From NCBI RefSeq assembly GCF_003258515.1, contig NZ_QGEH01000001.1, positions 124,001-188,000 of the forward strand: a stretch of DNA of 64,000 nt. The letters run 5' to 3'. The position numbers were made by a program, and so were the translations under genes. A model generated the notes under the pieces. It was not told the origin of the DNA. It saw nothing but the letters and a program-made list of their open reading frames with translations, and searched no databases. This document shows, in pieces, positions 13,724 through 39,832 of this stretch. This stretch comes from Marinobacter bohaiensis. GTDB lineage: Bacteria; Pseudomonadota; Gammaproteobacteria; Pseudomonadales; Oleiphilaceae. Each line of letters starts with the position of its first letter. Positions within the stretch are counted from its first letter, which is position 1.

Positions 13724-13724
13724 G

Positions 13725-14651: not shown

Positions 14652-14666
14652 CAGAGAAGAAAGCAA

Positions 14667-14700
14667 GGGAGCGCGGCTGTGGAGGGACAGCCGCGTTCCC
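14667..14700 (+). other. Strong hairpin between permease and Tsx-like gene
   Basis: CGCGGCTGT and ACAGCCGCG form a perfect 9-bp stem with a 6-nt loop, extended by GGGA/TCCC. No T tract follows, so it is more likely an mRNA-stabilising or processing hairpin than a full terminator. Confidence 0.5.
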
Positions 14701-14805
14701 AAGCGTGCGAGTAGATAGAGAGCCCGTCAGAGGTTCCGCGATTTCAATAACGAGAAATGCCACTGCCAACGATGCCTAGAAGAAACGACAGAGGATAGAT
14801 TGACC

Positions 14806-15579: not shown

Positions 15580-15587
15580 ACCCTGTT

Positions 15588-15618
15588 GGGGAGGCCGGGA
15601 TTCCGGCTTCCCCGCTTT
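15588..15618 (+). terminator. Terminator-like hairpin after the Tsx-like gene
   Basis: GGGGAGGCCGG and CCGGCTTCCCC form an 11-bp stem (one G-T pair) with loop GATT, followed by GCTTTC. The T tract is short, so it may attenuate rather than stop transcription into the regulator. Confidence 0.6.
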
Positions 15619-15635
15619 CAAAGCGATGGACGCTC

Positions 15636-22748: not shown

Positions 22749-23606
<858 letters not shown>

Positions 23607-23710
23607 CGAAGCCCGCGGTTACCCACGGGCGGCGCCATTGTATGCGGTTGCGCGTTTTTCCACCAGCCCCGAATGCGACCGGCCATGATCCGGGCCATGG
23701 CCGGTCCGGT

Positions 23711-25696
23711 TCAGTTGAGCAGCGATTCGGCGACCGCTTGCACGTTGTCCGCGGTAAAGCCGAAGGCCTTGAACAGATCCCCGGCGGGGGCGGACTCACC
23801 GAAGGTGGTCATGCCGATGACGCGGCCGTCCAGGCCCACGTACTTGTACCAGCCGTCCGGATGCCCCGCCTCGACGGCCAGCCGGGCTTTCACGGTGGCG
23901 GGCAGCACCTGCTCGCGGTAGGTGGCGTCCTGGGCGTCGAACACATCGCAGCAGGGCATGGACACCACACGCACGGCGCGGCCCTGCTGGGTCAGGGCCT
24001 CGGCGGCGGCCGTCGCCAGGCTGACTTCCGAGCCGGTGGCGATGAGGATCAGTTCCGGTTGCCCCGCGCAGTCTTTCAGCACGTAGCCGCCACGGCGGAT
24101 GTTCGCGAGCTGGCCGCGGTCGCGCGGCTGGTGCGGCAGCCCCTGGCGGGACAGCACCAGCGCGGTGGGGCCGTCGGCCCGCTCCAGGGCGGCCTGCCAG
24201 GCGGCGGCGGTCTCCACCGCGTCGGCCGGGCGCCAGGTGGACAGGTTCGGAGTGGCTCGCAGGGTGGCCAGTTGCTCGATGGGCTGGTGCGTGGGCCCGT
24301 CCTCGCCCAGCCCGATGGAATCGTGGGTGAACAGGTGAATCACCCGCTGCCTCATCAGCGCCGCCATGCGCACCGCGTTGCGCATGTATTCGGAGAAGAT
24401 CAGGAACGTCGCGCCGTAGGGCACGAAGCCGCCGTGCAGAGCAATACCGTTCAGGATCGCGGCCATGCCGAATTCGCGCACGCCATAATGCATGTAGTTG
24501 GCACCGGGGTGCTCGGCGCTGATGGGTTCGGCGCCGTCCCATACCGTCAGGTTGGACGGCGCCAGGTCGGCGCTGCCGCCCAGCAGCTCCGGCAATTGCG
24601 GGCCCAGGGTGTTGAGACAGCCCAGCGAGGCCTTGCGCGAGGCGATGGATTCTTCGCGGTCCAGGGCGGCGCCGGCCAGGTCGGTTTCCGCCAAGGCATC
24701 GGGTAACCGGCCCGCCATGCGCCGTTTGAACTCGGCAGCGGCGCCCGGGAAGGCTTCGGCGTAACGGGCGAAACGGGTGTTCCAGTCGTTCTCGCGGCGG
24801 GCGCCGGTGGCCCGGGCGTCCCAGCCTTCGTAGATGGATTGCGGTACGTGGAAGGCGGCGTGGGGCCAGTCCAGGTGGACCCGGGCGGCGGCCACTTCAT
24901 CCTCGCCCAGCGCGGCGCCGTGACAGGACTCCTGGCCCTGTTTGTTGGGCGCGCCGAAGCCGATGATGGTCTTGCAGATCAGCAGGCTGGGACGGTCGTC
25001 GGCCCGGGCCTGCTCAATCGCGGCGCGGACCTGCTCCGGGTCGTGGCCGTTCACCTGCTGGACCTGCCAGTGGTAGGCCTCGAAGCGCTTGGCGGTGTCG
25101 TCGGTGAACCAGCCTTCGACCTCGCCGTCGATGGAGATACCGTTGTCGTCGTAGAACACGATCAGCTTGCCCAGGCCCTGGGTGCCGGCCAGGGAGGCGA
25201 CTTCGTGGGAAATACCCTCCATCAGGCAGCCGTCGCCCACCAGGCAGTAGGTGTAGTGATCGACGATGCGGTGGCCGTCGCGGTTGAACTGGGCGGCGAG
25301 CGTGCGTTCGGCCAGGGCCAGCCCCACGGCGTTGGCCAGCCCCTGGCCCAGCGGCCCGGTGGTGGTTTCGACGCCGGGCGTGTAGCCGAACTCCGGGTGG
25401 CCCGGGGTTTTGGAGTGGAGCTGACGGAACTGCTTCAGGTCGTCCAGGCTCACCTCATAGCCGGACAGGTGCAGCAGCGCGTACTGCAGCATGGAGCCGT
25501 GGCCGTTGGACATGACGAAACGGTCGCGGTTGGGCCAGTCCGGGTTGCCGGGGTTATGGCTCAGGAAGTCGTTCCACAGGACTTCGGCGATGTCGGCCTG
25601 ACCCATGGGGGCGCCGGGGTGGCCGCTGCCGGCTTTCTGTACGGCGTCCATGGCCAGGGCGCGGACGGCGTTGGCCAGTTCGAAACGGGATGGCAT
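23711..25696 (-). CDS. tkt: Transketolase
   Basis: A 661-residue thiamine-diphosphate enzyme of the pentose phosphate pathway. Visible are the N-terminal [18 protein letters not shown], the TPP/Mg motif [19 protein letters not shown] with downstream DDNGIS, and the Pyr-domain [18 protein letters not shown]. Length and motif order are those of full-length bacterial transketolase. It lies downstream of transaldolase and the DhaK/DhaL pair on the same strand, in a locus that should make erythrose 4-phosphate, one of its substrates. It is likely a dedicated copy; a housekeeping copy may exist elsewhere. Confidence 0.95.
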
Positions 25697-25733
25697 GGCA
25701 AAGCTCCTTGTGGCGGTTCAGTGGGGGGCCGGA

Positions 25734-26693
25734 TCAGTGTTGAGCCAGGCGTTCGGCGATCAGCCGTTCCAGGCGTTCCTGGTCGGCGGCGAAACGGCGG
25801 ATGCCTTCGGCCAGCTTGTCGTTGGCCATGGCGTCCTGGTTGTGGCCCCAGCGGAAGTCGGCTTCCGACAGCGCCGGGGTGGCGCGGCCCTGGTCCGGGG
25901 CGACGTGTACGGTCGGGCTGACGTCGCCGTCGGTGCCGGCCAGTTCCTCCAGCAGCGCCGGGGAAATGGTCAGCCGCGGGCAGCCGGCGAGTCCCAGCAC
26001 CTGGCCGGTGTTGCGGAAGCTGGCGCCCATGACCACGGTGTCGTAGCCGCCGGCATTGAGCCGTTCGCACACGCCGCGCACGAAGCGCACGCCGGGATCG
26101 GTCTCGGCGGTGTACGCTTCGCCGGTGTGCTGCTTGTACCAGTCGGTCACCCGGCCCACGAACGGCGAGATCAGGAACACGCCGGCGTCGAAGCAGGCCT
26201 GGGCCTGGGCGTCGCTGAACAGCAGCGTCAGGTTGCACTGGATGCCTTCCTTTTCCAGTACTTCGGCGGCGCGGATGCCTTCCCAGGTGGAGGCCAGTTT
26301 GATCAGCACCCGGTCACGCCCCACGCCACGCTGCTCGTATTGCCCAATCAGGTCAAACGCCTTGCGGATGCTGGCGTCGGTGTCGAAGGACAGGCGCGCC
26401 GCCACTTCGGTGGAGACCCGGCCGGGGACCAGGCCGGCGATCTCGCACCCCATGGCCACCGACAGGGTATCGACCGCTTTCTCCACCTGCTGCTCGCGGG
26501 TGTCGCCGGTGCCTGCAAGGGCAGCCAGCTCCCGTTCGATCAGCGGCTGGTAGTCGGGCAGCTCGAAGGCCTTGAGGATCAGGGACGGGTTGGTGGTGGC
26601 ATCCTGCGGCTGGTAGCGGCGGATGGCGGACAGGTCACCGGTGTCGGCGACGATCAGGGAATGGGCTTTGAGCGCGTCGAGTTGCGATGGCAT
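25734..26693 (-). CDS. tal: Transaldolase
   Basis: A 319-residue TalB-type aldolase that moves dihydroxyacetone units between sugar phosphates, with erythrose 4-phosphate as acceptor. The Schiff-base lysine lies in RVLIKLASTWEGI (about residues 129-141), preceded by EVAARLSFDT and followed by NLTLLFSDAQA and SPFVGRVTDW, all hallmark segments. The ATG is 37 bp upstream of tkt's start on the same transcript. Confidence 0.95.
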   Translation of the reverse strand: MPSQLDALKAHSLIVADTGDLSAIRRYQPQDATTNPSLILKAFELPDYQPLIERELAALAGTGDTREQQVEKAVDTLSVAMGCEIAGLVPGRVSTEVAARLSFDTDASIRKAFDLIGQYEQRGVGRDRVLIKLASTWEGIRAAEVLEKEGIQCNLTLLFSDAQAQACFDAGVFLISPFVGRVTDWYKQHTGEAYTAETDPGVRFVRGVCERLNAGGYDTVVMGASFRNTGQVLGLAGCPRLTISPALLEELAGTDGDVSPTVHVAPDQGRATPALSEADFRWGHNQDAMANDKLAEGIRRFAADQERLERLIAERLAQH

Positions 26694-26912
26694 GACAAGG
26701 CTCCTCTGTCGGGAAACGGCGAAATATGAAGGCTGCGAACGGTGACGTCGTCGAACGCCGAAACCGGCGAGCGCTGCGCCCGGTTGCGTTAACGTTCGGC
26801 GATGACCGTGTCCGCCAGCGCGACGTCGTGAACGTCGCGGCGCCGGCGGTTCGAAGCGGGAAAGGCGAGTCGGGCGCCGTCGACGAATGGCAGCGCCCCG
26901 GAATCAACGGTC

Positions 26913-27566
26913 TCAGGCGGCCCGTGGCTGCAGGCGGGCCTCGGTGCTGTCCGCCAGTTGCGTCAGCAGCAGGCAGCAGGACACGGCACCGGCGTCCAGA
27001 TGACCCCGCGAGCGCTCGCCCAGGCGCGCCGAACGTCCGATTTTCGACACCAGGTCGCGGGTCGACTCCTTGCCCTGTTCCGCGCTCTGGCGCATGCGTT
27101 CGAGGGCGCCGGCAAAGTCGGCGCCGTCCACGAGCGCGGCCTGATAGGCCTCGACGGCGGGCACCAAGGTGTCGAGCAGGCACTTGTCGCCCACCTGGGC
27201 GTCGCTGATGTCCTGCAGGGATGCCAGGCCGCCGGCGAGCATGTCGCCGAAGGTCTGCGGATCGACGATCTCCTTGTCCTTGACCGTGGTCGCCATCCCC
27301 AGGAACAGGCTGCCGTAGAGTGGTCCCATGGAGCCGCCGATGGAGCCCATCAACACGCTGGCCAGTTTGCCCAGCCCCTTGGCCAGGGACAGGGACTGGC
27401 CGTCGATGGCCTCGCCGCACTGGCGGAAGCCCTTGGCCATGTTGATGCCGTGGTCGCCGTCGCCGATGGCACCGTCCACTTCGCTCAGATATGTACGGTT
27501 TTCCATAATGATGGCGACCAGATCCTGCAGGATCTCGTCACCTTTTGATGCGTCCAGATAATGCAT
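26913..27566 (-). CDS. Dihydroxyacetone kinase-type ADP/ATP-binding subunit, DhaL-like (erythrulose kinase partner)
   Basis: A 217-residue DhaL-domain protein. The Mg-nucleotide motif DGAIGDGDHG at 31-40 supplies D31, D36 and D38, and the helical barrel continues through GSIGGSMGPLYGSLF and DLVSKIGRSARLGERS, with GHLDAGAVS at the end. The ATG has GGGAGAA upstream; an open frame continuing into dhaK is not coding. Together with the upstream DhaK-like protein it forms a two-chain kinase. No PTS DhaM is nearby, so ATP is the likely donor. Confidence 0.88.
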   Translation of the reverse strand: MHYLDASKGDEILQDLVAIIMENRTYLSEVDGAIGDGDHGINMAKGFRQCGEAIDGQSLSLAKGLGKLASVLMGSIGGSMGPLYGSLFLGMATTVKDKEIVDPQTFGDMLAGGLASLQDISDAQVGDKCLLDTLVPAVEAYQAALVDGADFAGALERMRQSAEQGKESTRDLVSKIGRSARLGERSRGHLDAGAVSCCLLLTQLADSTEARLQPRAA

Positions 27567-27595
27567 GAGGGTTCTCCCGGCGGTGGCCTGTGGGA

Positions 27596-28588
27596 TCACT
27601 GGCTCAGGGCCAGGGATCGTGCGGGGGCGTCGAGCAGCGTCTTCAGCTCGTCGTCGAGCTGCATCAGCGTCAGGGTGGCGCCCATCATTTCCAGTGAGGT
27701 GAAGTAGTTGCCGATGTAGGTGCGGTGCACCTTGATGCCGGCCTCGTCCAGAATGTCGGCGATCTCGGCGTAGAGCAGGTTCAGTTCCATCACCGGTGTG
27801 GCGCCCAGCCCGGACACCAGTACCGCTACTTCGTCGCCGCGCTTGAAGGGACGGTCTTCCAGTACCGGTTTGCACAGTGTTGCCGCCATTTTCCTGGCCG
27901 AGGGCAGGTCGGTGATTTCAATGCCGGGCTCGCCATGGTGGCCGATGCCCAGTTCCATTTTGCCCGGCTCGATGGAGAAGTTGGGTTTGCCGTTGGCGGG
28001 AATGGTGCAGCTGCTCAGGCCGGCGCCGATGCTGGAGCAGGCGTCCACCGCCTTCTGGGCCAGGCGGATCACCTCGTTCAGGTTGTCGCCGCGGGCGGCA
28101 GCGGCCCCACCGATCTTCCACATCATGATTTCGCCGGCTACGCCGCGGCGTTTGTCGCGCTGGTCCGCCGGCGCCGAGGCCACGTCGTCCCGGGCCACCA
28201 CGGTCTGGACTTCGATGTCCTCCAGCTCCGCCATCTTGCGCGCCAGCTTCACGTTCATGTTGTCGCCGGCGTAGTTGCCGTAGAGGCAGGCCACGCCACG
28301 ACCCTGGTTGGCGGCATCGAAAGCCTGGAAGAAGGCGTCGGCGGTGGGGGAGGAGAAAATTTCGCCGATGGCCACGGCGTCGCACAGCCCCTCGCCGACG
28401 TAGCCGAGGAAGGCGGGTTCGTGGCCGGAACCGCCGCCGGTGACGACACCGACCTTGTTGCGGGGTTCGCCCGCGTACTTCAGGACCCGGGGATGGTCGG
28501 TGGCGGCGTAAAGAGTGGGGGAGGCGCGCAGGTAGCCGCGTACGGCGTCGTCCACCACGTTATCGGGATCGTTGATGATGCGTTGCAT
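27596..28588 (-). CDS. Dihydroxyacetone kinase-type substrate-binding subunit, DhaK-like (probable erythrulose kinase)
   Basis: A 330-residue DhaK. Conserved sites match E. coli DhaK numbering: GGGSGHEP with H56, GNYAGDNMN with D109, and the substrate-linking H218 in GHHGEPG, which binds short-chain ketoses covalently. It is first in the leftward dhaK-dhaL-tal-tkt operon and faces an RpiB-family isomerase. In Mycobacterium erythritol and threitol pathways, DhaK-family kinases phosphorylate D- or L-erythrulose; the neighbours here point the same way, but dihydroxyacetone kinase is not excluded. Confidence 0.88.
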   Translation of the reverse strand: MQRIINDPDNVVDDAVRGYLRASPTLYAATDHPRVLKYAGEPRNKVGVVTGGGSGHEPAFLGYVGEGLCDAVAIGEIFSSPTADAFFQAFDAANQGRGVACLYGNYAGDNMNVKLARKMAELEDIEVQTVVARDDVASAPADQRDKRRGVAGEIMMWKIGGAAAARGDNLNEVIRLAQKAVDACSSIGAGLSSCTIPANGKPNFSIEPGKMELGIGHHGEPGIEITDLPSARKMAATLCKPVLEDRPFKRGDEVAVLVSGLGATPVMELNLLYAEIADILDEAGIKVHRTYIGNYFTSLEMMGATLTLMQLDDELKTLLDAPARSLALSQ

Positions 28589-29027
28589 GGGATCTTCCTC
28601 ATGGATGGCTTGTTGTTGTGAATCCAGGGAGTGATCGGAACCCTCATCCTATGCGGGTTCCGACTCGAGGCCCAGCACGCGGGTTGATGAGCGCCATGAC
28701 GGATAGTGCGATCGATCATCCCGGTGATTAATGTTCTATATGCGATCAAATGTTTAGGGATCTTGCCGGTCTCTGTCAAGCGGCAACTCCGGTTTGCGGG
28801 TTCGCCTTTTGTCTATATTTTGTCCTTTTCTCTTGGCGTTTAATCCTCAATCCATTGAAAATAATGGTTTTATTTATATTTTCTGGTTTTTCGATCGTAA
28901 GATCGGTCATCGAATAAATGTTGCAACGGATGTCCTTCGTGGTTTACAAATGATCTAACAATGATAATTTGTAAATTCGATCGACCGGTATTGGGCCGGC
29001 GACTCCGACACCAGTGGAGGGCTACCT
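28589..29027. promoter_or_regulatory. Divergent control region of the tetritol locus
   Basis: This 439-bp, strongly AT-rich stretch between dhaK and the isomerase gene has no gene. It contains a 9-bp inverted repeat TTTACAAAT (28943-28951) and ATTTGTAAA (28967-28975) with a 15-nt spacer, and a second palindrome CGATC-GTAA-GATCG at 28892-28905. Both are candidate sites for the SorC-family regulator encoded at 29598-30578. Confidence 0.6.
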
Positions 29028-29525
29028 ATGTCTGAACCAACCACGGCCAGGCCGGCCACCATGCGAATCGCTCTGGGCGCGGACGAGGCGGCGTTCGAGC
29101 TCAAGGAGGCCTTGATCGAGCACGTGCGCGAACTGGGCTTCGAAGTGGTGGATTTCGGGACCTATAACGCCGAGCCCGTGCTTTATCCGGATGTGGCGGT
29201 GCGCGTGGCTCAGGCCATTAGCGCCGGAGAGGTGGAGCGCGGTGTGCTGGTCTGCGGTACCGGTATCGGTGTGGCGATCTCCGCCAACAAGGTGCGGGGC
29301 ATCCGCGCCGCCCAGGCGCACGATACCTATTCCGCCGCCAAGGCTCGTTCCAGCAACGATGCTCAGGTGGTGACGCTGGGCGCGCGCGTGGTCGGTCCGG
29401 AGCTGGCGAAAAGCATTGTTGCGGTGTTCCTCGGCGCGGACTTCGGCGGCGGTGCCTCGGCGGACAAGGTGGCGCGTATCGCCGATTACGAGCGTGAATT
29501 CTTCCGCGACGCCCCTAACAACTGA
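29028..29525 (+). CDS. RpiB/LacAB-family sugar-phosphate isomerase (probable erythrulose 4-phosphate isomerase)
   Basis: A 165-residue isomerase of the ribose-5-phosphate isomerase B fold. The catalytic-Cys loop GVLVCGTGIGVAISANKVRG is intact and the C-terminal NDAQVVTLGARVVG is typical. The N-terminal substrate loop reads ALGADEAAFELK: the usual D-H-A-G has Glu instead of His. In the mycobacterial tetritol pathway the RpiB-family enzymes DerI and LerI convert erythrulose phosphates to D-erythrose 4-phosphate, and this gene likely does the same. GGAGG precedes the ATG. RpiB function on ribose 5-phosphate cannot be excluded. Confidence 0.85.
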   Translation: MSEPTTARPATMRIALGADEAAFELKEALIEHVRELGFEVVDFGTYNAEPVLYPDVAVRVAQAISAGEVERGVLVCGTGIGVAISANKVRGIRAAQAHDTYSAAKARSSNDAQVVTLGARVVGPELAKSIVAVFLGADFGGGASADKVARIADYEREFFRDAPNN

Positions 29526-29597
29526 TCAGTGAGGGTTCGCCTGTTCATTATGGTATCGTTGCCCGGTCATTGAATTCCGACCGCATGAGACGTTGCC

Positions 29598-30578
29598 ATG
29601 GAAGAGAAAGTCGATAACGCCGATATCAGCCTGATGACCGAGATCGCCACTCTCTATTACGTGGAGGGCGAAACCCAGGAGGTCATCTCCCGGCGGCTCA
29701 AGGTGTCCCGGGTGAAAGTGGGGCGCCTGCTCAAGCGGGCCCATGCGGAGGGTGTGGTGGACGTGCGCGTGCGCCAGCATCCGGCGGCCAGCGCGGAGCT
29801 GGAGAAGGAGCTGATGCGCCGCTTCAATATCAAGCGGGCGCTGATTGCGCTGGATCACGTGGATGAGGATGTGCAGCGTTCCGGCGTAGCCAGCCTGGTC
29901 GCGGATCATTTGTCCCGTAACCTGCACGACGGTTCCATTGTCGCGGTGGGGATGGGACGCAACGTCGGTGCCGTCGCGGAGAACACCTTCGATCAGGGAG
30001 AGCGCAAATGTTCGTTCGTCTGCGCCATCGGGGGCTCCATCCGCGCTGGTGAGTACATGAACCCGGATCACATCTGTCGGCGCCTGGTGATGAAGTACGG
30101 CGGTGACAGCGAGACGCTCTACGCGCCGGCGCTGGTGCAGGACTCGGCCCTGCGCGATGCGATGTGCGAGAACCCGACGGTGCGCCAGACGCTGGATCGG
30201 GCGCGGCGGGCTGATGTTGCCCTGATTGGTGTGGGGGATATCAGCGAGAACAGCAATATGGTGCGAATGGGCTGGTTCTCGGCGGAGGAGATTGCCGAGG
30301 CCCGGTTGTCCGGTGCTGTCGGCGACATGATGGGGTACGACTTTATCGACCTGTACGGCAAACCCTCGGTGACGCCCATGCAGGGACGAGTGATCGGTCT
30401 GACGATCGGTGACCTGGCCCGTATTCCGGATGTGATTGCCATTGCCAGCGAGAACACCAAGGCGGTGGGTATCCTGGGGGCGCTGCGTACCGGTGTCATC
30501 GATACCCTGGCGACCAGCGTTACCAATGCCCACACCATTCTGCGCCTGGATGAGGCCACGCCGAACCTGGACTCCTGA
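29598..30578 (+). CDS. SorC/DeoR-type sugar-sensing transcriptional regulator (EryD-like)
   Basis: A 326-residue regulator with an N-terminal helix-turn-helix at about residues 28-60 (EVISRRLKVSRVKVGRLLKRA) and a C-terminal phosphosugar-binding domain of the SorC type (GMGRNVGAVAE, DVALIGVGDISENSNM, GVIDTLATSVTNA near the end). EryD, which controls erythritol genes in Brucella and rhizobia, belongs to this family. It sits between the isomerase and dehydrogenase genes and is likely to regulate both divergent operons, with an intermediate such as erythrulose phosphate as inducer. Confidence 0.88.
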   Translation: MEEKVDNADISLMTEIATLYYVEGETQEVISRRLKVSRVKVGRLLKRAHAEGVVDVRVRQHPAASAELEKELMRRFNIKRALIALDHVDEDVQRSGVASLVADHLSRNLHDGSIVAVGMGRNVGAVAENTFDQGERKCSFVCAIGGSIRAGEYMNPDHICRRLVMKYGGDSETLYAPALVQDSALRDAMCENPTVRQTLDRARRADVALIGVGDISENSNMVRMGWFSAEEIAEARLSGAVGDMMGYDFIDLYGKPSVTPMQGRVIGLTIGDLARIPDVIAIASENTKAVGILGALRTGVIDTLATSVTNAHTILRLDEATPNLDS

Positions 30579-30745
30579 GGTCGGCGTCGGCCAGGGAGTG
30601 GTCGTGATTCCCGTATTTCCTGCCTGAACATATGTGCGCGATCTGAATATAGGATTGCGACTTAGCCTGCTGGTTTTTCGGCCTGCTTTTCCTTTAATTT
30701 TTGGCTATTTATTAAAAATACAACAATAACAATAATTTAAGATAA

Positions 30746-30761
30746 TAAGACTAAAGTCTTA
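30746..30761. promoter_or_regulatory. Inverted repeat upstream of the dehydrogenase gene
   Basis: TAAGACT-AA-AGTCTTA is a perfect 7-bp palindrome in an AT-rich 290-bp gap (30579-30868). It lies 107 bp before the dehydrogenase ATG. It is a candidate operator for the SorC-family regulator. Confidence 0.45.
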
Positions 30762-30868
30762 CAAAAAAGTTTTACCGTCTCATTGACGGCGGCTTTCCTA
30801 AAGTTCTTAATGCAAATGTACACAACAAGATCAAATGAAAAGGCATTGTCAGCCTAGAGGAGGCCCTC

Positions 30869-31981
30869 ATGAACGACACCCTCGCCCAACCCGAATCCTC
30901 GCAAGTGTCCATTCCCAAGACCATGAAGGCCATCGTGGCCTATGCGCCGGGCGACTATCGCCTGGAAGAGGTCGATGTCCCGGAGATCGGTGAAAAGGAA
31001 ATCCTGGTCAAGGTGGAAGCCTGCGGTATCTGCGCCGGCGACCTGAAGGCCTACGAGGGTGCGCCCAGTTTCTGGGGCGATGAGAGCCAGCCTGCCTACA
31101 TCAAGGCACCGATGATTCCGGGGCACGAGTTCGTGGGGCATGTGGTCAAGATGGGGCCGGGGGCCAAGGGCTTCGAGATCGGCGACCGGGTGATCTCCGA
31201 ACAGATCGTGCCCTGCTGGGACTGCCGTTTCTGCCATCGCGGCCAGTACTGGATGTGCGAGAAGCACGACGTCTACGGCTTCCAGAACAACGTCAACGGC
31301 GGCATGGCCGAGTACATGAAGTTTCCCAAGGAAGCCATCAACCACAAGCTGCCGGACGATGTGCCGGTGGAAAACATCGTACTGACCGAGCCTTTCTCCT
31401 GCTCCATGCACGCGGTGGAGCGCGCCCAGATCCAGTTGGGTGACGTGGTGGTGCTGTCCGGCGCCGGCACCCTGGGCCTGGGTATGATCGGCCCGGCCAA
31501 GAAATCCGGCCCCGCCAAGCTGGTGGTCCTGGACCTGCACGGCGAACGTCTGGAACTGGCGAAGAAGTTCGGCGCCGACGTGGTGCTCAATCCCAGCGAA
31601 GAGGACGTGGTCCAGATCGTCAAGGACATGACCGACGGTTACGGCTGCGACATCTACATCGAAGCCACCGGCGCGCCCAAGTCGGTGGAACAGGGCCTGG
31701 CCATGCTGCGCAAGCTGGGCCGGTTCGTGGAATTCAGCGTGTTCAAGGACCCGGTCACGGTGGACTGGAGCATCATCAGCGACCGCAAAGAGCTGGACGT
31801 GCTCGGCGCCCACCTGGGGCCCTACTGCTATCCCCACGTGATCAAGGGCATCGAGAGCGGTGATTTCCCCACCGACGGCGTGGTGACCCACAAGCTGCCG
31901 CTGGAGGAGTTCCACAAAGGCATCGACCTGATGAAGCACGATAGCAGTGCCCTCAAGATCATGCTGGTGCCGGGCGCCTGA
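30869..31981 (+). CDS. Zinc-dependent alcohol dehydrogenase, erythritol/L-threitol dehydrogenase-like
   Basis: A 370-residue medium-chain dehydrogenase. Catalytic zinc ligands are C55 in ACGICAGD and H86-E87 in GHEFVGHV; the structural zinc is held by C116, C119, C122 and C130. A Rossmann NAD-binding motif GAGTLGLG lies near residue 200. The sequence resembles the mycobacterial EltD enzyme (FWGDE, EQIVPCWDCRFC, SCSMHAVERAQI and DVLGAHLGPYCYP). It would oxidise a tetritol to erythrulose, feeding the DhaK/DhaL kinase. AGAGGAGG upstream of the ATG is a strong ribosome binding site. Confidence 0.85.
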   Translation: MNDTLAQPESSQVSIPKTMKAIVAYAPGDYRLEEVDVPEIGEKEILVKVEACGICAGDLKAYEGAPSFWGDESQPAYIKAPMIPGHEFVGHVVKMGPGAKGFEIGDRVISEQIVPCWDCRFCHRGQYWMCEKHDVYGFQNNVNGGMAEYMKFPKEAINHKLPDDVPVENIVLTEPFSCSMHAVERAQIQLGDVVVLSGAGTLGLGMIGPAKKSGPAKLVVLDLHGERLELAKKFGADVVLNPSEEDVVQIVKDMTDGYGCDIYIEATGAPKSVEQGLAMLRKLGRFVEFSVFKDPVTVDWSIISDRKELDVLGAHLGPYCYPHVIKGIESGDFPTDGVVTHKLPLEEFHKGIDLMKHDSSALKIMLVPGA

Positions 31982-31995
31982 TCGCATCGTTCAAA

Positions 31996-32020
31996 CGTCG
32001 CGGCCGTTCCGGCCGCGACG
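31996..32020 (+). other. Perfect hairpin between dehydrogenase and transporter genes
   Basis: CGTCGCGGCC and GGCCGCGACG form a 10-bp stem with loop GTTCC, 14 bp after the dehydrogenase stop. No T tract follows; it may stabilise the upstream mRNA or reduce read-through into the transporter genes. Confidence 0.5.
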
Positions 32021-32068
32021 CGCCCAAGACCCTCAAGCGACTAACAACAAAAGCCAGAGGTCCACATC

Positions 32069-32725
32069 ATGAACCCATCGGCCAGTCTTCCATCGGCCCT
32101 GTCACCGCGACAGTCCCCCGCGCGTCTGGCGGCCATCGTCGTTGGCGTGGCCGTGCTGATCCTGATGGCGCTGGACACGACCGTCGTTGAGATCGGCTCG
32201 GCACAGGATGCCCGGGACGACGGTTTCAACCCCGAGCAATACGGCCAGAGCCAGTTTCCCGCTATTCGTTCCCATGTCGAGGAACGCGCGGTCAGCGCCG
32301 CCACCCTGGCGTCAGCCATCGCCGAGGACCAGACCGCGGCCGGCCAGGAATACGGCACACCGGCCGGTATCGGGCCGATCATGCCCGTAACCTTCACCGG
32401 TGTGGCCGGGGAGGGCAAATCCGGTATCTATCCCGTGACGGTCGACGGCGTGCCCGGGAAAGTCACCGTGCGAGTCCAGACCGGCCCGGCCATCAACGGT
32501 ACCGACCTGCGCGACGCCACCGGCGAGATCGAATTCGGCCAGTTCACCAACCAGATCGAGTACCAGAACGCCGGCGCGGCGATCAACAACGCCATGAAGG
32601 CGGACGTGCTGGCGGATGTCGACACCGACAGTCTGGCGGGCAAGACCGTCACGGTCACCGGTGTGTTCAAGCTGATCAATCCGAACAACTGGCTGGTGAC
32701 GCCGGTCAGGATGGACGTGCAATGA
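32069..32725 (+). CDS. DUF2291 periplasmic protein linked to sugar ABC transport
   Basis: A 218-residue protein with one N-terminal hydrophobic helix (about residues 20-38) and an exported body that ends in PNNWLVTPVRMDVQ. The TGVAGEGKSGIYPVTVDGV and DVDTDSLAGKTVTVTGVF segments are typical of DUF2291, a family found only next to RbsABC-type sugar transporters. The ATPase start overlaps its stop by 4 bp. There is no lipobox Cys after the helix. Function is unknown, presumably assisting polyol uptake. Confidence 0.75.
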   Translation: MNPSASLPSALSPRQSPARLAAIVVGVAVLILMALDTTVVEIGSAQDARDDGFNPEQYGQSQFPAIRSHVEERAVSAATLASAIAEDQTAAGQEYGTPAGIGPIMPVTFTGVAGEGKSGIYPVTVDGVPGKVTVRVQTGPAINGTDLRDATGEIEFGQFTNQIEYQNAGAAINNAMKADVLADVDTDSLAGKTVTVTGVFKLINPNNWLVTPVRMDVQ

Positions 32726-34266
32726 CCCCAGAGACCGTATCCAGCGATGCCGGCCCGGACGAGGTGGTGCTGTCCGCGCGCAATGTGGCCAAATCCTTCG
32801 GCAACGTCCATGCGCTCAAGACCGTCAACTTCGACGTGCATCGTGGCCAGGTCACCACCCTGTTCGGTGAAAACGGCGCCGGCAAGTCGACGTTGATGAA
32901 AATCCTGTCCGGCGTGATCCAGCCTACCTCCGGCGAGGTGTTGCTGGAGGGCGAGCCGGTGTCGTTCGCCTCCACCACCGACGCCCAGCGCCGGGGGATT
33001 TCGATCATCCACCAGGAGCTGAGCCTGGCGCCCAACCTGAGCGTGCGCGACAACATCTTCATGGGGCGCGAGCTGGTCCGTCGCGGCGGTATCGACTACG
33101 CCGAGGAAGAACGCCAGACCCGCCTGCTGATGGAGGAACTGGACGAGCCCATCGATCCGCGCACCCCGGTGGAGGACCTGCGCCTGGGGCAGCAGCAGAT
33201 CGTGGAAATCGCCCGGGCGCTGTCCGTGGACGCACGCATCCTGATCATGGATGAGCCCACCTCGGCGCTCAGCGCCTCGGAAGTGGAGGTGCTGTTCCGG
33301 GTGATCCGCGATCTCAAGAGCCGCGGCGTGTCCATCGTCTACATCTCCCACCACCTGGAAGAGGCCCTGCAGATCACCGATCACGCGGTGGTCCTGCGCG
33401 ACGGCACCATGACCGCCTACGCCCGGCGCGAGGACATCGACCTGGAGTGGATCGTGCGCAACATGGTGGGGGAGAACTTCAACCTGGGCGAGCCGCCCAC
33501 CGGCCACGCCTTCGGCGAGGTGGCCCTGTCCCTGGACCGGATTTCCGTGCCCGACCCGGTGCTGCCGGAGCGCCGCGTGGTGGACGAACTGTCGCTGGAC
33601 GTGCGCGCCGGCGAGATCGTCTGCATCTACGGCCTGATGGGCGCCGGCCGCACCGAACTGTTCGAGTGCGTGGCCGGGCGGATGCCCCGGAGCGAAGGCG
33701 TGGTGCGGCTCGACGGGCACGACGTGTCCGCCCTGAGCATCGCCGAGCGTATCGAACGCGGCCTGGTGCTGGTGCCCGAAGACCGGCAGCGCGATGGTCT
33801 GGTGCAGACCATGTCGGTGGGGGAGAACCTGTCCCTGGCCAGCATCGGCGCCTTTACCCGGGGCGGGCTGACCTCGTCCAGCCGCGAGCAGGGTGTGGTG
33901 CATGAGGCCATCCGAGATGTGCACATCAAGACAGACGGTCCCGAGGCGGGCATCGGTTCCCTGTCCGGCGGCAACCAGCAGAAGGTGGTGATCGGCAAGA
34001 TGCTGGCGACCCAGCCGCGCGTGGTGCTGCTCGACGAGCCCAGCCGGGGGATCGATATCGGCGCCAAGGCGGAAGTCTTCCGCCTGCTCAGCGAAGGCGC
34101 CGAACAGGGCCTGGCGGTGATCTATTCCACCTCGGAGGTGGGGGAATGCCTGAGCATCGCCCACCGCATCCTGGTCATGAGCCGCGGTCGCATCGCGGCG
34201 GAGTTCGGGGCCGATGCCAGCAAGGCGGAGATCATGGCCGCCTCCGGCGAGGCCGTGGTCGCCTGA
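32722..34266 (+). CDS. Sugar ABC transporter, double ATPase subunit (RbsA-type)
   Basis: A 514-residue ATPase with two cassettes. The first has GENGAGKST (about residues 53-61), a late QQQIVEIARAL helix and Walker B ILIMDEPTSAL; the second has a GLMGAGRTELFE P-loop-like segment and LSGGNQQKVVIGK with VVLLDEPSRGIDIG. This is the RbsA/AraG/XylG pattern. It is coupled to the DUF2291 gene by a 4-bp overlap and followed by permease and binding-protein genes. Expected cargo is a tetritol such as erythritol or threitol, by context. Confidence 0.9.
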   Translation: MTPETVSSDAGPDEVVLSARNVAKSFGNVHALKTVNFDVHRGQVTTLFGENGAGKSTLMKILSGVIQPTSGEVLLEGEPVSFASTTDAQRRGISIIHQELSLAPNLSVRDNIFMGRELVRRGGIDYAEEERQTRLLMEELDEPIDPRTPVEDLRLGQQQIVEIARALSVDARILIMDEPTSALSASEVEVLFRVIRDLKSRGVSIVYISHHLEEALQITDHAVVLRDGTMTAYARREDIDLEWIVRNMVGENFNLGEPPTGHAFGEVALSLDRISVPDPVLPERRVVDELSLDVRAGEIVCIYGLMGAGRTELFECVAGRMPRSEGVVRLDGHDVSALSIAERIERGLVLVPEDRQRDGLVQTMSVGENLSLASIGAFTRGGLTSSSREQGVVHEAIRDVHIKTDGPEAGIGSLSGGNQQKVVIGKMLATQPRVVLLDEPSRGIDIGAKAEVFRLLSEGAEQGLAVIYSTSEVGECLSIAHRILVMSRGRIAAEFGADASKAEIMAASGEAVVA

Positions 34267-34323
34267 CCGGCCCGAACCATCGATAACAGCCCCGAACCAA
34301 CAATAACAGCGGAGTCCAGAACC

Positions 34324-35481
34324 ATGTCCGATACCAGCCAAGCGGCCAGCCGGCCGGGATTCCCGTTCCCGGGCGGCCAGTTCGACCTGGGGCGCATGCT
34401 CCTCGATGGCCGGGCGTTCTTCGCCCTGATCGCCATCATCGTGATCTTCTCGGTCCTGTCGCCGGTCTATTTCTCGACCAACAACTTCCTGACCATGTCC
34501 TCCCACGTGGCCATCTTCGGCCTGCTGTCGATCGGCATGCTGCTGGTGATCCTGACCGGCGGGATCGACCTGTCGGTGGGCTCGACCCTCGGCCTGGCCG
34601 GCGTGGTGGCCGGCTACCTGATGCAGGGCGTGCAGATCGACGCCCTGGGCGTGGTGCTCTACCCGCCAGTGTGGGTGGTGGTGATCCTTACCTGCGCGCT
34701 GGGGGCTTTTGTCGGCGCCATCAACGGCGTGTTGATCGCCTACTTCAAGGTGCCGGCGTTCGTGGCCACCCTGGGGCTGCTCTACGTCGCCCGCGGCGCG
34801 GCGCTGCTGATGACCGACGGCCTGACCTTCAACAACCTGGGCGGCTCGGCGGAGCTGGGTAACACCGGCTTCGAGTGGCTCGGCTTCAACCGGCTGTTCG
34901 GCGTGCCCATCGGCGTGCTGGTACTGGCGGCCGTGGCCATCCTGGTGATGCTGATGCTCAATCGCACGCCCTTCGGTCGCTGGGTCTACTCCACCGGCGG
35001 CAACGCCCGGGCGGCGGAACTGTCCGGGGTGCCGGTCAAGCGGGTGCAGGTGTCCGTGTATGTGCTGTCCGGTATCTGCGCGGCGATTGCCGGTCTGGTG
35101 CTGTCCTCCCAGCTCACTTCCGCTGGCCCCACCGCCGGCACCACCTACGAACTGACCGCCATCGCCGGCGTGGTGATCGGCGGCGCGGCCCTGGCCGGCG
35201 GCCGGGGCAACGTGCGCGGCACGCTGCTGGGCGCCTTCGTGATTGGTTTCCTGTCCGACGGCCTGGTCATCATCGGCGTGTCGTCCTACTGGCAGACTGT
35301 GTTCACCGGTGCGGTGATCGTCCTGGCCGTGTTGCTCAACAGCATCCAGTACAAGGGCCGCAAGAAACAGCCGCCGGCCGCCGAGTCGTCGAAAAGCGCG
35401 TCGCGGCCGGCGTCGCCGGATGCTTCTCCGTCTTCTCCATCTTCGCACGATAGCGCCCGGGAACAGGCAGTCGGGCACTGA
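34324..35481 (+). CDS. Sugar ABC transporter permease (RbsC-type)
   Basis: A 385-residue permease of the BPD_transp_2 family with about ten hydrophobic segments. The LSIGMLLVILTGGIDLSVGS motif near residue 75 and FVATLGLLYVARG near 143 are standard for ribose and polyol permeases. An Ala/Ser-rich hydrophilic C-terminal tail of about 40 residues is an oddity. The gene is 57 bp downstream of the ATPase gene and 60 bp upstream of the binding protein. Confidence 0.9.
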   Translation: MSDTSQAASRPGFPFPGGQFDLGRMLLDGRAFFALIAIIVIFSVLSPVYFSTNNFLTMSSHVAIFGLLSIGMLLVILTGGIDLSVGSTLGLAGVVAGYLMQGVQIDALGVVLYPPVWVVVILTCALGAFVGAINGVLIAYFKVPAFVATLGLLYVARGAALLMTDGLTFNNLGGSAELGNTGFEWLGFNRLFGVPIGVLVLAAVAILVMLMLNRTPFGRWVYSTGGNARAAELSGVPVKRVQVSVYVLSGICAAIAGLVLSSQLTSAGPTAGTTYELTAIAGVVIGGAALAGGRGNVRGTLLGAFVIGFLSDGLVIIGVSSYWQTVFTGAVIVLAVLLNSIQYKGRKKQPPAAESSKSASRPASPDASPSSPSSHDSAREQAVGH

Positions 35482-35541
35482 TGCGCAAGCCATCGCCGGT
35501 ACGCCGGTATAACAAGCACAATAGAAAACAAGGGTGAACCA

Positions 35542-36510
35542 ATGATGTGGAAAAACGCAAAGCGCCTGCTGATCGCCGCCGTCATGACGACCACCTCGCT
35601 GTTCGCGACGGTCGCCGCGGCCGAGGATCAGGGCCTCATCTCGATCATCGTCAACGACACCTCCAACCCCTACTGGTTCACGGAAGGCAAGGTTGCCAAG
35701 GCCACCGCCGAGGAACTGGGCTACCGCGCCAACGTGAGCTCCCACAAGGGCGATACCAACACCGAGAGCAATCAGGTGGATACCGCCATCACCAACCAGG
35801 CCAAGGCGATCATCCTGGATCCGGCCAACGCCAACGGCTCCATCGGGGCGGTGCGCAAGGCGGTGAGCGCCGGTATCCCGGTGTTCATCGTTAACGCGGA
35901 AATCAACAAGCAGGGTCTGGCCAAGGCGCAACTGGTGTCCAACAACGCCCAGGGCGCGGCGCTGGGGGCGCAGAAATGGGTGCAGGCCGCCGGTGACGGC
36001 GCCCACTACGTGGAGCTCAAGGGCGCGCCTTCGGACAACAACGCGGCGACCCGTTCCAACGGTTTCCGCACCGTGCTCAGCCAGTACCCGAGCCTGGACC
36101 GGGTGGCGTCCGACGTGGCCAACTGGGACCGCACCCAGGGGTACAACAAGATGCAGAGCATGTTGCAGGCCAATCCGGACATCGACGGGGTAATCAGCGG
36201 TAACGACGAGATGGCGCTGGGCGCGATCGCCGCCCTGAAGGAAGCCGGCAAGCTGGACGGTGTGGTCGTCGGCGGCTTTGACGGCTCACCGGACGCGGTG
36301 GAAGCGGTGCGCGAAGGCGAGCTGGCCTACACCGTGCTGCAGCCGGTGGCCATCTTCTCCGCCGAAGCGGTGCGCCAGGCCGACCACTTCATCCGCACCG
36401 GCGAGACCGGCGTGGAACGTGAGAAGCAGCTGTTCGACTGCGCCCTGATCACACCGGACAATGTAGACAAGTACTCGTCCGCCTTCGTGCTGGACGGTCA
36501 GGGCAGCTGA
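35542..36510 (+). CDS. Sugar ABC transporter substrate-binding protein (RbsB-type)
   Basis: A 322-residue periplasmic binding protein of the Peripla_BP_4 family with a signal peptide ending ATVAAAEDQ. Ligand-site motifs include NDTSNPYWFTEG, AIILDPANANGSIGAVRKA, DGVISGNDEMALGAIAALKEAG and GGFDGSPDAVEAV, all of the ribose/polyol group. A rho-independent terminator follows. It closes the transporter operon. Confidence 0.9.
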   Translation: MMWKNAKRLLIAAVMTTTSLFATVAAAEDQGLISIIVNDTSNPYWFTEGKVAKATAEELGYRANVSSHKGDTNTESNQVDTAITNQAKAIILDPANANGSIGAVRKAVSAGIPVFIVNAEINKQGLAKAQLVSNNAQGAALGAQKWVQAAGDGAHYVELKGAPSDNNAATRSNGFRTVLSQYPSLDRVASDVANWDRTQGYNKMQSMLQANPDIDGVISGNDEMALGAIAALKEAGKLDGVVVGGFDGSPDAVEAVREGELAYTVLQPVAIFSAEAVRQADHFIRTGETGVEREKQLFDCALITPDNVDKYSSAFVLDGQGS

Positions 36511-36797: not shown

Positions 36798-38123
36798 TTA
36801 CCAGGACGGTCCGCCGGTAATGCCCGGCAGCCACATGACCGCCGGCTCGTAGAAGAGCACCACGGCCAGCACGATCAGCTGGATCACGATGAACGGGATC
36901 ACGCCCTTGTACATGTGCTTAAGGGTGATCTCCGGCGGCGTGATGGCCCGCAGGTAGAAGATCGACGGAGCCAGTGGCGGCGTCAGGTAACTGGTCTGCA
37001 GCACCACCAGGAAGGCCACGCAGAACCAGATGTCGTCGAAGCCCAGGGCGCGCACCACCGGCATGGCGACCGGGATCACGATCAGGACCACGGACATCAT
37101 GTCCAGCACGAAGCCGGCCAGGAAGGCGATCAGCAGGATCAGGCCGATGATGGCCCAGGGCTCCAGGCCGGTGGCCATGAGCATGGACTGCACCGTGGCC
37201 ATGCCGCCTGCGGCGAAGAACACGCCGGCGAACATGTGCCCGCCCAGCAGGATCAGCAGGATCATGGCGGTGATGTTGACCGTGCGCCCGCAGGAGTCCC
37301 AGAACACCTTCAGGTTCAGGTTGCGGTAGAAGGCGGACAGCAGCAGCGCGCCGGCAGCGCCGCAGGCGGCGGCTTCGGTCGGCGTGGCCAGGCCCATGAG
37401 GATGGTGCCCAGCACCGTGAAGATCAGGGCCGCGGTCGGCAACAGGGCGTAGACGGTGACCTTCATCTTCTGGCCGAGGGAATAGTGCACCGCCTCGTCA
37501 TCGACGCGCGGCGCCATGGACGGCTTGAAGTAGGCCACGCCGATGATGTAGATCACGAACAGCGCGGCCATCAGCAGACCCGGGATCAGCAGACCGCTGA
37601 ACAGGGAGCCGACGGAGACGCTGGCCACCGGACCCAGTACGACCACCGTGATCGACGGCGGAATCGCGGTACCCAGGGAACCGGCCGAGCAGATCACGCC
37701 GGACATCAGGCTCTTGTCGTAGTGGTGCTTCATCATCACCGGGATGGCGAGCATGCCGATCACGGCTTCGGTGGCTCCGACGACGCCGGACGACGCGGCG
37801 AAGATGGTGCCCAGCACGATGGCGCCCACGCCCAGCCCGCCGGGCAGGCGCACGGTCCACATGTGGACCGCCTTGAACAGGCGCTCGGCGATGCCGGATT
37901 TTTCCAGCATGGCGCCCATGAAGATAAACAGCGGCACCGCCGCCAGGATGGCGTTGGAGGCGGTGTCCTCGATCTTGGTGAGCAGTTGATAGGGCGCGGT
38001 CTGACCAAAAATCATCAGGCCGAACACCGCCGCCACCAGGATCATCGAAAACGCAATCTGGAAGCCCGCGAAGATCAGCAGCATCAACAGCGGGAACATC
38101 AACAGCGACAGGTAATCGCTCAT
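36798..38123 (-). CDS. dctM: TRAP transporter large permease (DctM)
   Basis: A 441-residue inner-membrane protein of the DctM family with about twelve helices. Recognisable are the FQIAFSMILVAAVFGLMIFG start, LFIFMGAMLEKSGIAERLF, the long G-rich AIVLGTIFAASSGVVGATEAVIGM, AAACGAAGALLL and FVLDMMSVVLIVIPVAMPV. It overlaps dctQ by 4 bp. It provides the sodium-driven translocation route for a solute captured by DctP. Confidence 0.92.
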   Translation of the reverse strand: MSDYLSLLMFPLLMLLIFAGFQIAFSMILVAAVFGLMIFGQTAPYQLLTKIEDTASNAILAAVPLFIFMGAMLEKSGIAERLFKAVHMWTVRLPGGLGVGAIVLGTIFAASSGVVGATEAVIGMLAIPVMMKHHYDKSLMSGVICSAGSLGTAIPPSITVVVLGPVASVSVGSLFSGLLIPGLLMAALFVIYIIGVAYFKPSMAPRVDDEAVHYSLGQKMKVTVYALLPTAALIFTVLGTILMGLATPTEAAACGAAGALLLSAFYRNLNLKVFWDSCGRTVNITAMILLILLGGHMFAGVFFAAGGMATVQSMLMATGLEPWAIIGLILLIAFLAGFVLDMMSVVLIVIPVAMPVVRALGFDDIWFCVAFLVVLQTSYLTPPLAPSIFYLRAITPPEITLKHMYKGVIPFIVIQLIVLAVVLFYEPAVMWLPGITGGPSW

Positions 38124-38644
38124 ACCAGTTCCTCCCGGTGCTCTGTCTGGCCGTCACCCTTGATCAGGGTGCAAATGGATTTCAGGAATTCGGCCAGCAA
38201 CTGCAGGCACATCAGGGAAAAACCGACACACCAGACCAGGTACACCGGCCAGACGATCGGGTTCCAGGCCGAGCGTCCGGAACGCTCGCCGCTTTCCCAG
38301 GCGTCGTGGAAGTACTTGAACACTTCCCAGGTCAGCCAGATCATCAACGGCAGGAAAAACAGGTAACACAGGGTGCGGATGGCGGCGTTGACACGCGGCG
38401 ACAGCTTCAGGGTGATTACATCCACGCTCACGTGCTGACCGACGCGAAGGGCGTTGGCCATGCCCAGCATGAAGATGGCGCCCATCACCATGTAACTTGT
38501 TTCGAAGGCCCACAGGGTGGGGGAGCCCAGCACGTATCGGCTGAAGACTTCGTAGACCAGGGCGGCTACCAGGGGAAGTATGAGGATGGCCGCCAGGTGC
38601 CCGGCGTACCGGGTGAGGCTTTCTATAAATGCAATCAGTTTCAT
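38120..38644 (-). CDS. dctQ: TRAP transporter small permease (DctQ)
   Basis: A 174-residue four-helix membrane protein of the DctQ family (YAGHLAAILILPLVAALVYEVFSRYVLG, then a LWAFETSYMVMGAIFMLGMA helix). The ATG at 38644 (MKLIAFIES) starts at the first helix; an upstream in-frame codon lies in the terminator-like hairpin and is not plausible. Its Shine-Dalgarno is weak. It partners DctM and DctP. Confidence 0.88.
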   Translation of the reverse strand: MKLIAFIESLTRYAGHLAAILILPLVAALVYEVFSRYVLGSPTLWAFETSYMVMGAIFMLGMANALRVGQHVSVDVITLKLSPRVNAAIRTLCYLFFLPLMIWLTWEVFKYFHDAWESGERSGRSAWNPIVWPVYLVWCVGFSLMCLQLLAEFLKSICTLIKGDGQTEHREELV

Positions 38645-38660
38645 GAGCGTGTTCCGGACA

Positions 38661-38697
38661 AATAAAAGCCGGGGTAGCCGACGGACGGCCACCCCGG
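38661..38697 (-). terminator. Terminator-like hairpin between dctP and dctQ
   Basis: On the minus strand CCGGGGTGGCC and GGCTACCCCGG form an 11-bp stem (one mismatch) followed by CTTTTATT. It sits in the 70-bp gap between dctP and dctQ and probably lowers permease expression relative to the abundant binding protein. Confidence 0.65.
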
Positions 38698-38714
38698 TTG
38701 TTTCTTAGTGGAAA

Positions 38715-39776: not shown

Positions 39777-39832
39777 AGTTGTGCCTTTCTTTTTTTGGTG
39801 GGAAGAGCCCGCAGGTGTCGTGGGTGCACCCG

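Follow-up and report, generated by a model that had tools for sequence, protein, structure and literature searches.

A candidate erythritol gene cluster in Marinobacter bohaiensis with a two-chain DhaK/DhaL-type kinase, a DerI-like isomerase and an EryEFG-type importer

Described tetritol routes and the Marinobacter cluster

The erythritol and threitol pathway of Mycobacterium smegmatis uses EltD, LerK and DerK, LerI and DerI (PMC10733421, PMC12780249). EltD and LerK together yield D-erythrulose 4-phosphate from erythritol, and L-erythrulose 1-phosphate from L-threitol (PMC10733421). The ery systems of Rhizobium and Brucella (EryABC, EryH/I, EryD and EryEFG) phosphorylate before they oxidise. 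Here we describe a cluster of 11 genes at positions 23711-36510 of a 64,000-nucleotide stretch of the Marinobacter bohaiensis genome (the window; assembly GCF_003258515.1, contig NZ_QGEH01000001.1, positions 124,001 to 188,000). The cluster is very probably an inducible set that imports erythritol, and probably also D-threitol, and converts it to erythrose 4-phosphate.

We infer the following reactions, with their stereochemistry, from the gene content. An EryEFG-type ATP-binding cassette (ABC) importer and its DUF2291 partner would bring in erythritol, and a zinc dehydrogenase would oxidise it to D-erythrulose. DhaK and DhaL, most likely with ATP, would then form D-erythrulose 4-phosphate, which a DerI-type isomerase would turn into D-erythrose 4-phosphate. 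Finally, an extra transaldolase and transketolase could carry erythrose 4-phosphate on to fructose 6-phosphate and glyceraldehyde 3-phosphate.

As in M. smegmatis, oxidation by an EltD-kind dehydrogenase would come first, followed by the kinase and then by DerI, with D-erythrose 4-phosphate as the product. The cluster differs in its two-chain kinase, EryEFG-type importer, SorC regulator and own transaldolase and transketolase, and it contains neither LerI nor a short-chain dehydrogenase/reductase (SDR). The tetrulose kinase of M. smegmatis is a single chain. With the ery systems the cluster shares an orthologous importer with DUF2291, D-erythrose 4-phosphate as the predicted end product and a SorC-family regulator, but it would oxidise first, its kinase and dehydrogenase belong to other families, its regulator is only 27-29% alike, and EryC was not found. 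A locus on plasmid p42f of Rhizobium etli CFN 42 (L091) has a related importer with DUF2291, DhaK/DhaL and an RpiB-fold isomerase. It differs in carrying OiaX, a four-carbon acid sugar kinase, a Gfo/Idh/MocA oxidoreductase and its own triosephosphate isomerase (TPI), and in a binding pocket nearer the ribose type. The erythritol cluster of Yarrowia lipolytica likewise combines a dehydrogenase, a dihydroxyacetone-kinase-like erythrulose kinase and an RpiB-like isomerase; unlike the Marinobacter cluster it is eukaryotic, includes a TPI homologue and has another regulator (PMC5992420). The same paper, citing Barbier 2014, already remarks on DhaK in genomes without eryA and eryB. Within the open-access literature, a scope outside which most subscription papers fall, none of the matches listed by title and opening of the abstract assigns a bacterial dehydrogenase-DhaK-DhaL-isomerase core to erythritol. 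The parts of the cluster are known. The proposed route follows mycobacterial logic, has two chains in its kinase and an importer of the rhizobial type, and varies described routes without being a new kind of system.

The 11 genes form a complete cluster of two divergent sets. From the centre outwards, the minus strand carries dhaK, dhaL, the transaldolase gene and the transketolase gene; the plus strand carries the genes for the isomerase, the SorC regulator, the dehydrogenase, the DUF2291 protein, the ABC ATPase, the permease and the substrate-binding protein. A sequence-only reading of this DNA had named these genes, that for the DUF2291 protein apart, and joined them in a tetritol route ending in erythrose 4-phosphate. 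All are present as open reading frames (ORFs) with their families confirmed, and the evidence below, drawn from sequence, supports the route. A Pfam search of 10 of the 11 proteins matched each to its expected family above cut-off (Transketolase_N, TAL_FSA, Dak2, Dak1, LacAB_rpiB, Sugar-bind of SorC proteins, ADH_N/ADH_zinc_N, DUF2291, BPD_transp_2 and Peripla_BP_4). The eleventh, the ATPase (32722-34266, plus strand), was assigned instead from the ATPases that occupy the corresponding place in loci of Paracoccus, Roseibium, Vibrio and the halomonad type, to which it is 68-91% identical.

Searches of the organism's own genome covered 4.76 Mb in 11 contigs. Loci of relatives are numbered L. A DhaK scan of one genome per species gave 368 loci, and the best 80 were analysed with flanks of up to 10 kb. 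Counts among the 80 loci drop tblastn matches with less than half the length of the query or below identity thresholds, and 19 of these loci span less than 18 kb; the comparison of locus with locus drops matches below half the reference length.

Importer, isomerase, dehydrogenase and kinase

The periplasmic binding protein (35542-36510, plus) is 73.7% identical to EryG of Rhizobium leguminosarum (L100), an organism whose growth on erythritol depends on eryEFG; Geddes 2013 applied a cut-off of 73% (PMC3599248). By tblastn, L100 also holds an eryC-like gene (84%), an eryB-like gene (79%) and an eryA-like gene in two pieces. We compared 14 pocket positions defined from E. coli RbsB, whose pocket we take to consist of these residues. 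In the alignment all 14 are identical between the window protein and R. leguminosarum EryG, and they are identical in nine of ten other close orthologues; the tenth, a Vibrio copy truncated where its locus stops, is gapped at one of them. Against E. coli RbsB seven positions agree and seven differ, and the ribose-pocket residues Asp89 and Arg90 are replaced by Asn and Ala. The importer had first been called RbsABC-like; the pocket places it in the EryEFG type instead, with its binding protein an EryG orthologue. A ribose importer was rejected on the seven differences from RbsB.

The closest plasmid relatives of the binding protein are 73-75% identical, and its relatives in L004 and L100 adjoin GlpD-like and TIM-barrel sugar-phosphate genes. 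The DUF2291 lipoprotein-like accessory gene (32069-32725, plus; PF10054, 157 bits) adjoins the importer in L002, L004 and L091 and in 16 of the 80 loci. A hypothetical gene heads the eryEFG transcript of R. leguminosarum (PMC3599248), and we take it to be the DUF2291 gene. The permease gene (34324-35481, plus) matches PF02653 with 162 bits.

The importer also bears on a route for D-apiose or apiitol like that of R. etli p42f, which we consider highly improbable here. In its favour are the components shared with p42f, whose locus carries oiaX together with a related binder, and the nearest solved structures to the window protein, 5ibq and 4ry0. These are presumably apiose and ribose complexes of the L091 binder. 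The pocket agrees with that of the apiose-locus binder at nine of 14 positions and differs at five, the window DhaK lies outside the R. etli DhaK branch, and OiaX, a Gfo/Idh/MocA oxidoreductase and a four-carbon acid sugar kinase are all missing from the cluster itself, no genome-wide search for them having been made.

The isomerase (29028-29525, plus; LacAB_rpiB) is the sole RpiB-family protein found in the genome. In our alignment it keeps the catalytic Cys66 and the Thr68 of E. coli RpiB, and His10, His99, Asn103, Arg133, His134 and Arg137 are replaced by Glu, Ser, Gln, Ala, Ser and Lys. The same alignment sets these residues against the enzyme of PMC4783025, which describes the equivalents of His99 in ring opening and of His10, Arg133 and Arg137 in phosphate binding. 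A true RpiB was rejected on the replacement of the ring-opening His and of the phosphate-binding His/Arg set. A four-carbon 4-phosphate is unable to close a furanose ring. The fungal RpiB-like protein 3QD5 of Coccidioides immitis has Asp/Ser/Gln/Ser/Lys where the window isomerase has Glu/Ser/Gln/Ser/Lys, the last four residues being common to both. In 3QD5 the phosphate is held by Ser109, Ser145 and Lys148, the ring-opening His is lost, and its authors suspected shorter-chain substrates (PMC3212906). The pattern [ED]-S-Q-S-K occurs in 64 of the 68 isomerase ORFs found in L010-L089, and none of the 68 has His at the His10 or His99 position. Ser99, Gln103 and Ser134 are also common to the cluster isomerase and the DerI-like proteins of R. 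etli and Zobellella. These residue replacements are in keeping with the earlier description of the enzyme as DerI-like.

Alternatively, the dehydrogenase could feed a pentitol or pentose route, yielding D-ribulose or D-xylulose for phosphorylation by DhaK/DhaL, with the isomerase a true RpiB. Two RpiB models pass their cut-offs on this protein, transaldolase and transketolase would serve pentose phosphates as well, and the nearest solved binding proteins bear the name of ribose transporters. We nevertheless find this route very unlikely: the ring-opening and phosphate residues of RpiB are lost, as is the Asp/Arg pair of the ribose pocket, and among 48 isolates of Pseudomonas viridiflava, a species with the core in one genome (L079), 89.5% use erythritol and 2% adonitol (PMC9412563).

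In the proposed erythritol route the first enzyme would be the zinc alcohol dehydrogenase (30869-31981, plus; 370 aa; ADH_N and ADH_zinc_N), a candidate erythritol/D-threitol 2-dehydrogenase. The EltD-like label given to it is plausible: it belongs to the zinc alcohol dehydrogenase family, keeps the spacing of the structural-zinc cysteines (Cys116/119/122/130) and shares 54% identity with a Providencia protein (H92) whose label, erythritol/L-threitol dehydrogenase, is an annotation only. Given the chemistry of EltD and LerK, erythritol and D-threitol would need only a dehydrogenase, a kinase and DerI, which is the set the cluster is predicted to provide. L-threitol would need LerI, which is absent from the cluster; the sole TPI-family gene found in the genome lies outside the cluster, and a genome search found no second TPI. 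Of the tetritols first proposed as substrates, erythritol is favoured by the EryG-type importer, D-threitol is probable and L-threitol is unsupported.

This bears on another possibility, in which erythritol or L-threitol is oxidised by the dehydrogenase to L-erythrulose, DhaK/DhaL form L-erythrulose 1-phosphate, and the housekeeping TPI stands in for LerI. TpiA and LerI are homologous, and each may be able to catalyse the reaction of the other; EltD is also active on L-threitol (PMC10733421). With a single TPI in the genome and none in the cluster, we regard it as unlikely; by contrast, the apiose locus of R. etli and the ery locus of Zobellella each carry a TPI of their own.

The classical ery pathway was rejected because EryC was not found in the genome (no match at E 0.001; the R. 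leguminosarum plasmid control was found). EryC was likewise not found in 12 of 13 other cluster genomes, the exception being Zobellella, where ery genes lie beside the core. EryA and EryB are not among the cluster proteins; no genome-wide search for them was made.

The predicted D-erythrulose 4-kinase consists of a DhaK-type subunit (27596-28588, minus; 330 aa; Dak1, 374 bits) and a DhaL-type subunit (26913-27566, minus; 217 aa; TIGR02365, 168 bits, cut-off 138), the latter with a GDxDHG motif as in E. coli DhaL. The start of dhaL was set at Met 27566; a longer mechanical ORF from 27875 overlaps dhaK. With the NCBIfam dhaK1 model DhaK scores 350 bits and stays under the cut-off (406). A tree of 28 DhaK rows, four of them long-branched and several nearby branches long or weak, groups 22 rows including the window protein in one clade with support 100/100. 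This clade excludes the DhaK proteins of E. coli and R. etli and a Bacillus cluster kinase (L105). His56, Asp109 and His218 are kept in all 80 cluster-type kinases, every one of which has Gly in place of E. coli Lys104. Since R. etli-type kinases also have Gly there, this residue marks a break from E. coli and is not proof of a tetrulose substrate.

The kinase could instead belong to a conventional operon for dihydroxyacetone kinase that has pentose-phosphate genes as neighbours. The kept catalytic residues His56, Asp109 and His218 would suit this, as would the finding that the cluster DhaK is the sole DhaK found in the genome. The loss of Lys104, the EryG-type importer and the DerI-type residues of the isomerase speak against it, as does the failure of a genome search with TIGR02364 to find DhaM, for which the E. 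coli control was positive. We consider it the least probable of the alternatives, scarcely to be expected. A dihydroxyacetone kinase of the phosphotransferase system was rejected on the same search. With no DhaM found in the genome, ATP is most likely the phosphoryl donor of the proposed D-erythrulose kinase.

Other forms of the kinase occur among the relatives. On a Halomonas plasmid (L009) the place of the kinase genes is taken by frameshifted pieces of an apparent fused single-chain kinase, a hint that kinases of one and of two chains can replace each other in this slot. Alphaproteobacterial plasmids (L002, L007, L008) carry a second, divergent DhaK (38-42% identical to that of the window) near a closer one. 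In L002 this divergent DhaK (13706-15793) is annotated as a fused sugar-binding regulator/DhaK, possibly a sensor built from a kinase subunit.

The sequence-only reading had also pointed to a dedicated transaldolase and transketolase, and both are indeed second copies. The transketolase (23711-25696, minus; 661 aa) scores 971 bits with TIGR00232 (cut-off 682), and the genome holds one other strong match (G000:C1:976731) and three weak ones of 25-38 bits. The transaldolase (25734-26693, minus; 319 aa) scores 414 bits with TIGR00874 (cut-off 396) and is one of two in the genome (the other at G000:C1:1766357). With other copies elsewhere, those in the cluster are extra.

The SorC regulator and operator-like sites

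The regulator (29598-30578, plus; 326 aa; PF04198, 228 bits) belongs to the SorC/DeoR family. It had been called EryD-type. The family assignment stands. Close orthology to EryD does not, since identity to the SorC genes that adjoin eryC in L038 and L004 is only 27% and 29%.

We propose that this one regulator, answering to an inducer, controls the whole set by binding operators of the CATTTGATC type in the promoters of dhaK and of the dehydrogenase gene, and a variant half-site in that of the isomerase gene. Both intergenic regions were aligned for 15 sequences, the window and L010-L023, and conserved blocks appear, with CATTTGATC-type half-sites for dhaK and the dehydrogenase gene and the variant for the isomerase gene. 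The divergent promoter region (28589-29027) contains an operator-like CATTTGATC-N7-GAACAT at 28731-28752 on the dhaK side, the sole exact match in the genome, and the variant half-site CATTTGTAAA at 28943-28952 on the isomerase side. The promoter region of the dehydrogenase/importer unit (30579-30868) has half-sites at 30626-30634 and 30829-30837 and an operator-like match with one mismatch at 30816-30837. With at most one mismatch, CATWTGWTC-N7-GAWCAT has three matches genome-wide, and the sites at 28731-28752 and 30816-30837 are two of them. A first pattern with an 8-base spacer gave two one-mismatch sites in the genome and none in the cluster, and the spacer was then set to 7 from the alignment. 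The half-site CATWTGWTC is weak evidence alone (three window matches against 1.07 expected, with at least three in 7 of 100 shuffles), and all three matches fall within the two promoter regions. A promoter scan gave two sites against 2.1 expected, and a terminator scan 12 against 8.0 expected.

Distribution and erythritol phenotypes

The gene neighbourhood is conserved far beyond chance. Among the 80 loci we count dhaL in 78, the isomerase in 67, the dehydrogenase in 62, SorC in 52, an SDR in 47, transaldolase in 24, transketolase in 22, a major facilitator superfamily (MFS) transporter in 17 and an EryG-type binder in 16. Fourteen loci (L010-L023), from Chromohalobacter, Halomonas, Modicisalibacter, Aidingimonas and one genome named Marinobacter mangrovi, repeat the layout of the window as far as contig ends permit. 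Elsewhere the surroundings vary. In Serratia, in Providencia and on enterobacterial plasmids the core is accompanied by an MFS transporter, which replaces the ABC importer, and usually by an extra SDR, which is lacking beside the core of the Klebsiella plasmid copy. Pseudomonas loci mostly have a different ABC importer and an SDR, and in Vibrio loci the dehydrogenase and SorC gene are absent from the stretch examined. The combination had been put forward as a hybrid not obviously described; the two-chain kinase, dehydrogenase, isomerase and SorC regulator are in fact common together in gammaproteobacteria.

In the organism's own family, sampled by 61 genomes, DhaK gave three matches, of which only two are close: the genome itself and one of the same genus (that of L010) at 92%. 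This patchy distribution suggests horizontal arrival from halomonads.

Several results weigh against the erythritol reading. The isomerase passes the RpiB models NF004051 and TIGR01120 and the broad RpiB/LacA/LacB model, and it stays below cut-off with the NCBIfam models for rhizobial DerI (164 bits, cut-off 240) and actinobacterial RPI (153.5 bits, cut-off 168); on our reading, these scores may mark an isomerase subfamily still without a model of its own. The dehydrogenase passes no NCBIfam cut-off. The backward control of the operator pattern found one genome match, and the pattern was derived from the same regions that were later searched, which makes its conservation across relatives the stronger evidence. 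Because most Pseudomonas, Serratia and Providencia versions have an SDR and other importers, their substrate could differ.

Published phenotypes come from several of the groups that carry the core. Growth on erythritol is recorded for Halomonas sp. HL-93, in which a pathway and an ABC importer for it are predicted (PMC5507952). Chromohalobacter salexigens is scored (+/+) for erythritol, and EC 2.7.1.27 is among the hand-added reactions (PMC3034673). About three quarters of Providencia rettgeri isolates acidify erythritol (PMC5663057), a trait that sets the species apart among the Proteeae (PMC5663057, PMC10796120). EC 2.7.1.27, named above for C. salexigens, we take to be erythritol kinase. 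Among 24 Providencia genomes, 12 have a close DhaK (90-100%), five more have only one of 41-44%, and seven have none. The core is present in P. heimbachae, P. vermicola, P. burhodogranariea and one P. alcalifaciens genome, a partial mismatch with acidification said to be unique to P. rettgeri. Pseudomonas phenotypes are mixed: beside the erythritol-positive P. viridiflava isolates, erythritol is used by 0% of 33 strains of P. syringae pv. actinidiae, 0% of 2 of pv. actinidifoliorum and 28% of 18 other P. syringae (PMC10890144). In Serratia marcescens m-erythritol was a biotype test, and a 2022 genus-wide study, in the part drawn on here, assigns no pathway (PMC9440931). As genotype and phenotype come from different strains, the phenotypes fit the erythritol reading and are no test of it.

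We lean towards the view that the conserved core (an EltD-like dehydrogenase, two-chain DhaK/DhaL, an isomerase with the Ser-Ser-Lys residues, SorC and often transaldolase and transketolase) is the unrecognised genetic basis of classical erythritol use in halomonads, P. rettgeri, Serratia biotypes and the P. syringae group. Its isomerase and kinase would then be bacterial tetrulose-phosphate subfamilies now labelled ribose-5-phosphate isomerase B and dihydroxyacetone kinase. If so, an old diagnostic trait would gain its genes, and a widespread misannotation would be corrected, the RpiB and dihydroxyacetone kinase labels in these clusters belonging to tetrulose enzymes. Metabolic engineering, too, would gain a short oxidative route of three enzymes from erythritol to erythrose 4-phosphate.

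The core also occurs on plasmids and in other settings. It is found with an MFS transporter on plasmids of Salmonella and Klebsiella (L003, L006) and of one E. coli; the Salmonella and Klebsiella plasmids examined are typed as conjugative. Among 5426 E. coli genomes a single one carries 80% or more of the Klebsiella version, which it has on a plasmid (NZ_CP063469). In Zobellella denitrificans (L038, 9433-20955) DhaK, DhaL and the isomerase lie beside an eryC-like gene, a TPI and a DerI-type isomerase, and this organism may have two tetritol routes side by side. In two Vibrio species (L049 and L054, 1-11650) the genes for the isomerase, DhaK and DhaL have two importers as neighbours, one of the EryG type and another ABC importer unrelated to it. 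A Pseudalkalibacillus plasmid (L105, 9001-15853) carries the dehydrogenase (72%), an MFS transporter, the isomerase, DhaK, DhaL and a class II fructose-bisphosphatase, which places the core in Bacillota as well.

Within the window, a lumazine synthase (RibH)-like gene (22749-23438, minus) adjoins the transketolase gene, immediately preceded by a flavin mononucleotide (FMN) riboswitch (RF00050, 112.5 bits; 23461-23611, minus). The substrate of RibH is a four-carbon ketose phosphate. RibH homologues occur in five fetched loci (L009, L010, L018, L020 and L021), on differing sides of the cluster. Next after the cluster on its other side lie putative ORFs for a tripartite ATP-independent periplasmic (TRAP) transporter (36798-40181, minus), judged by eye to encode a large permease, a small permease and a binding protein.

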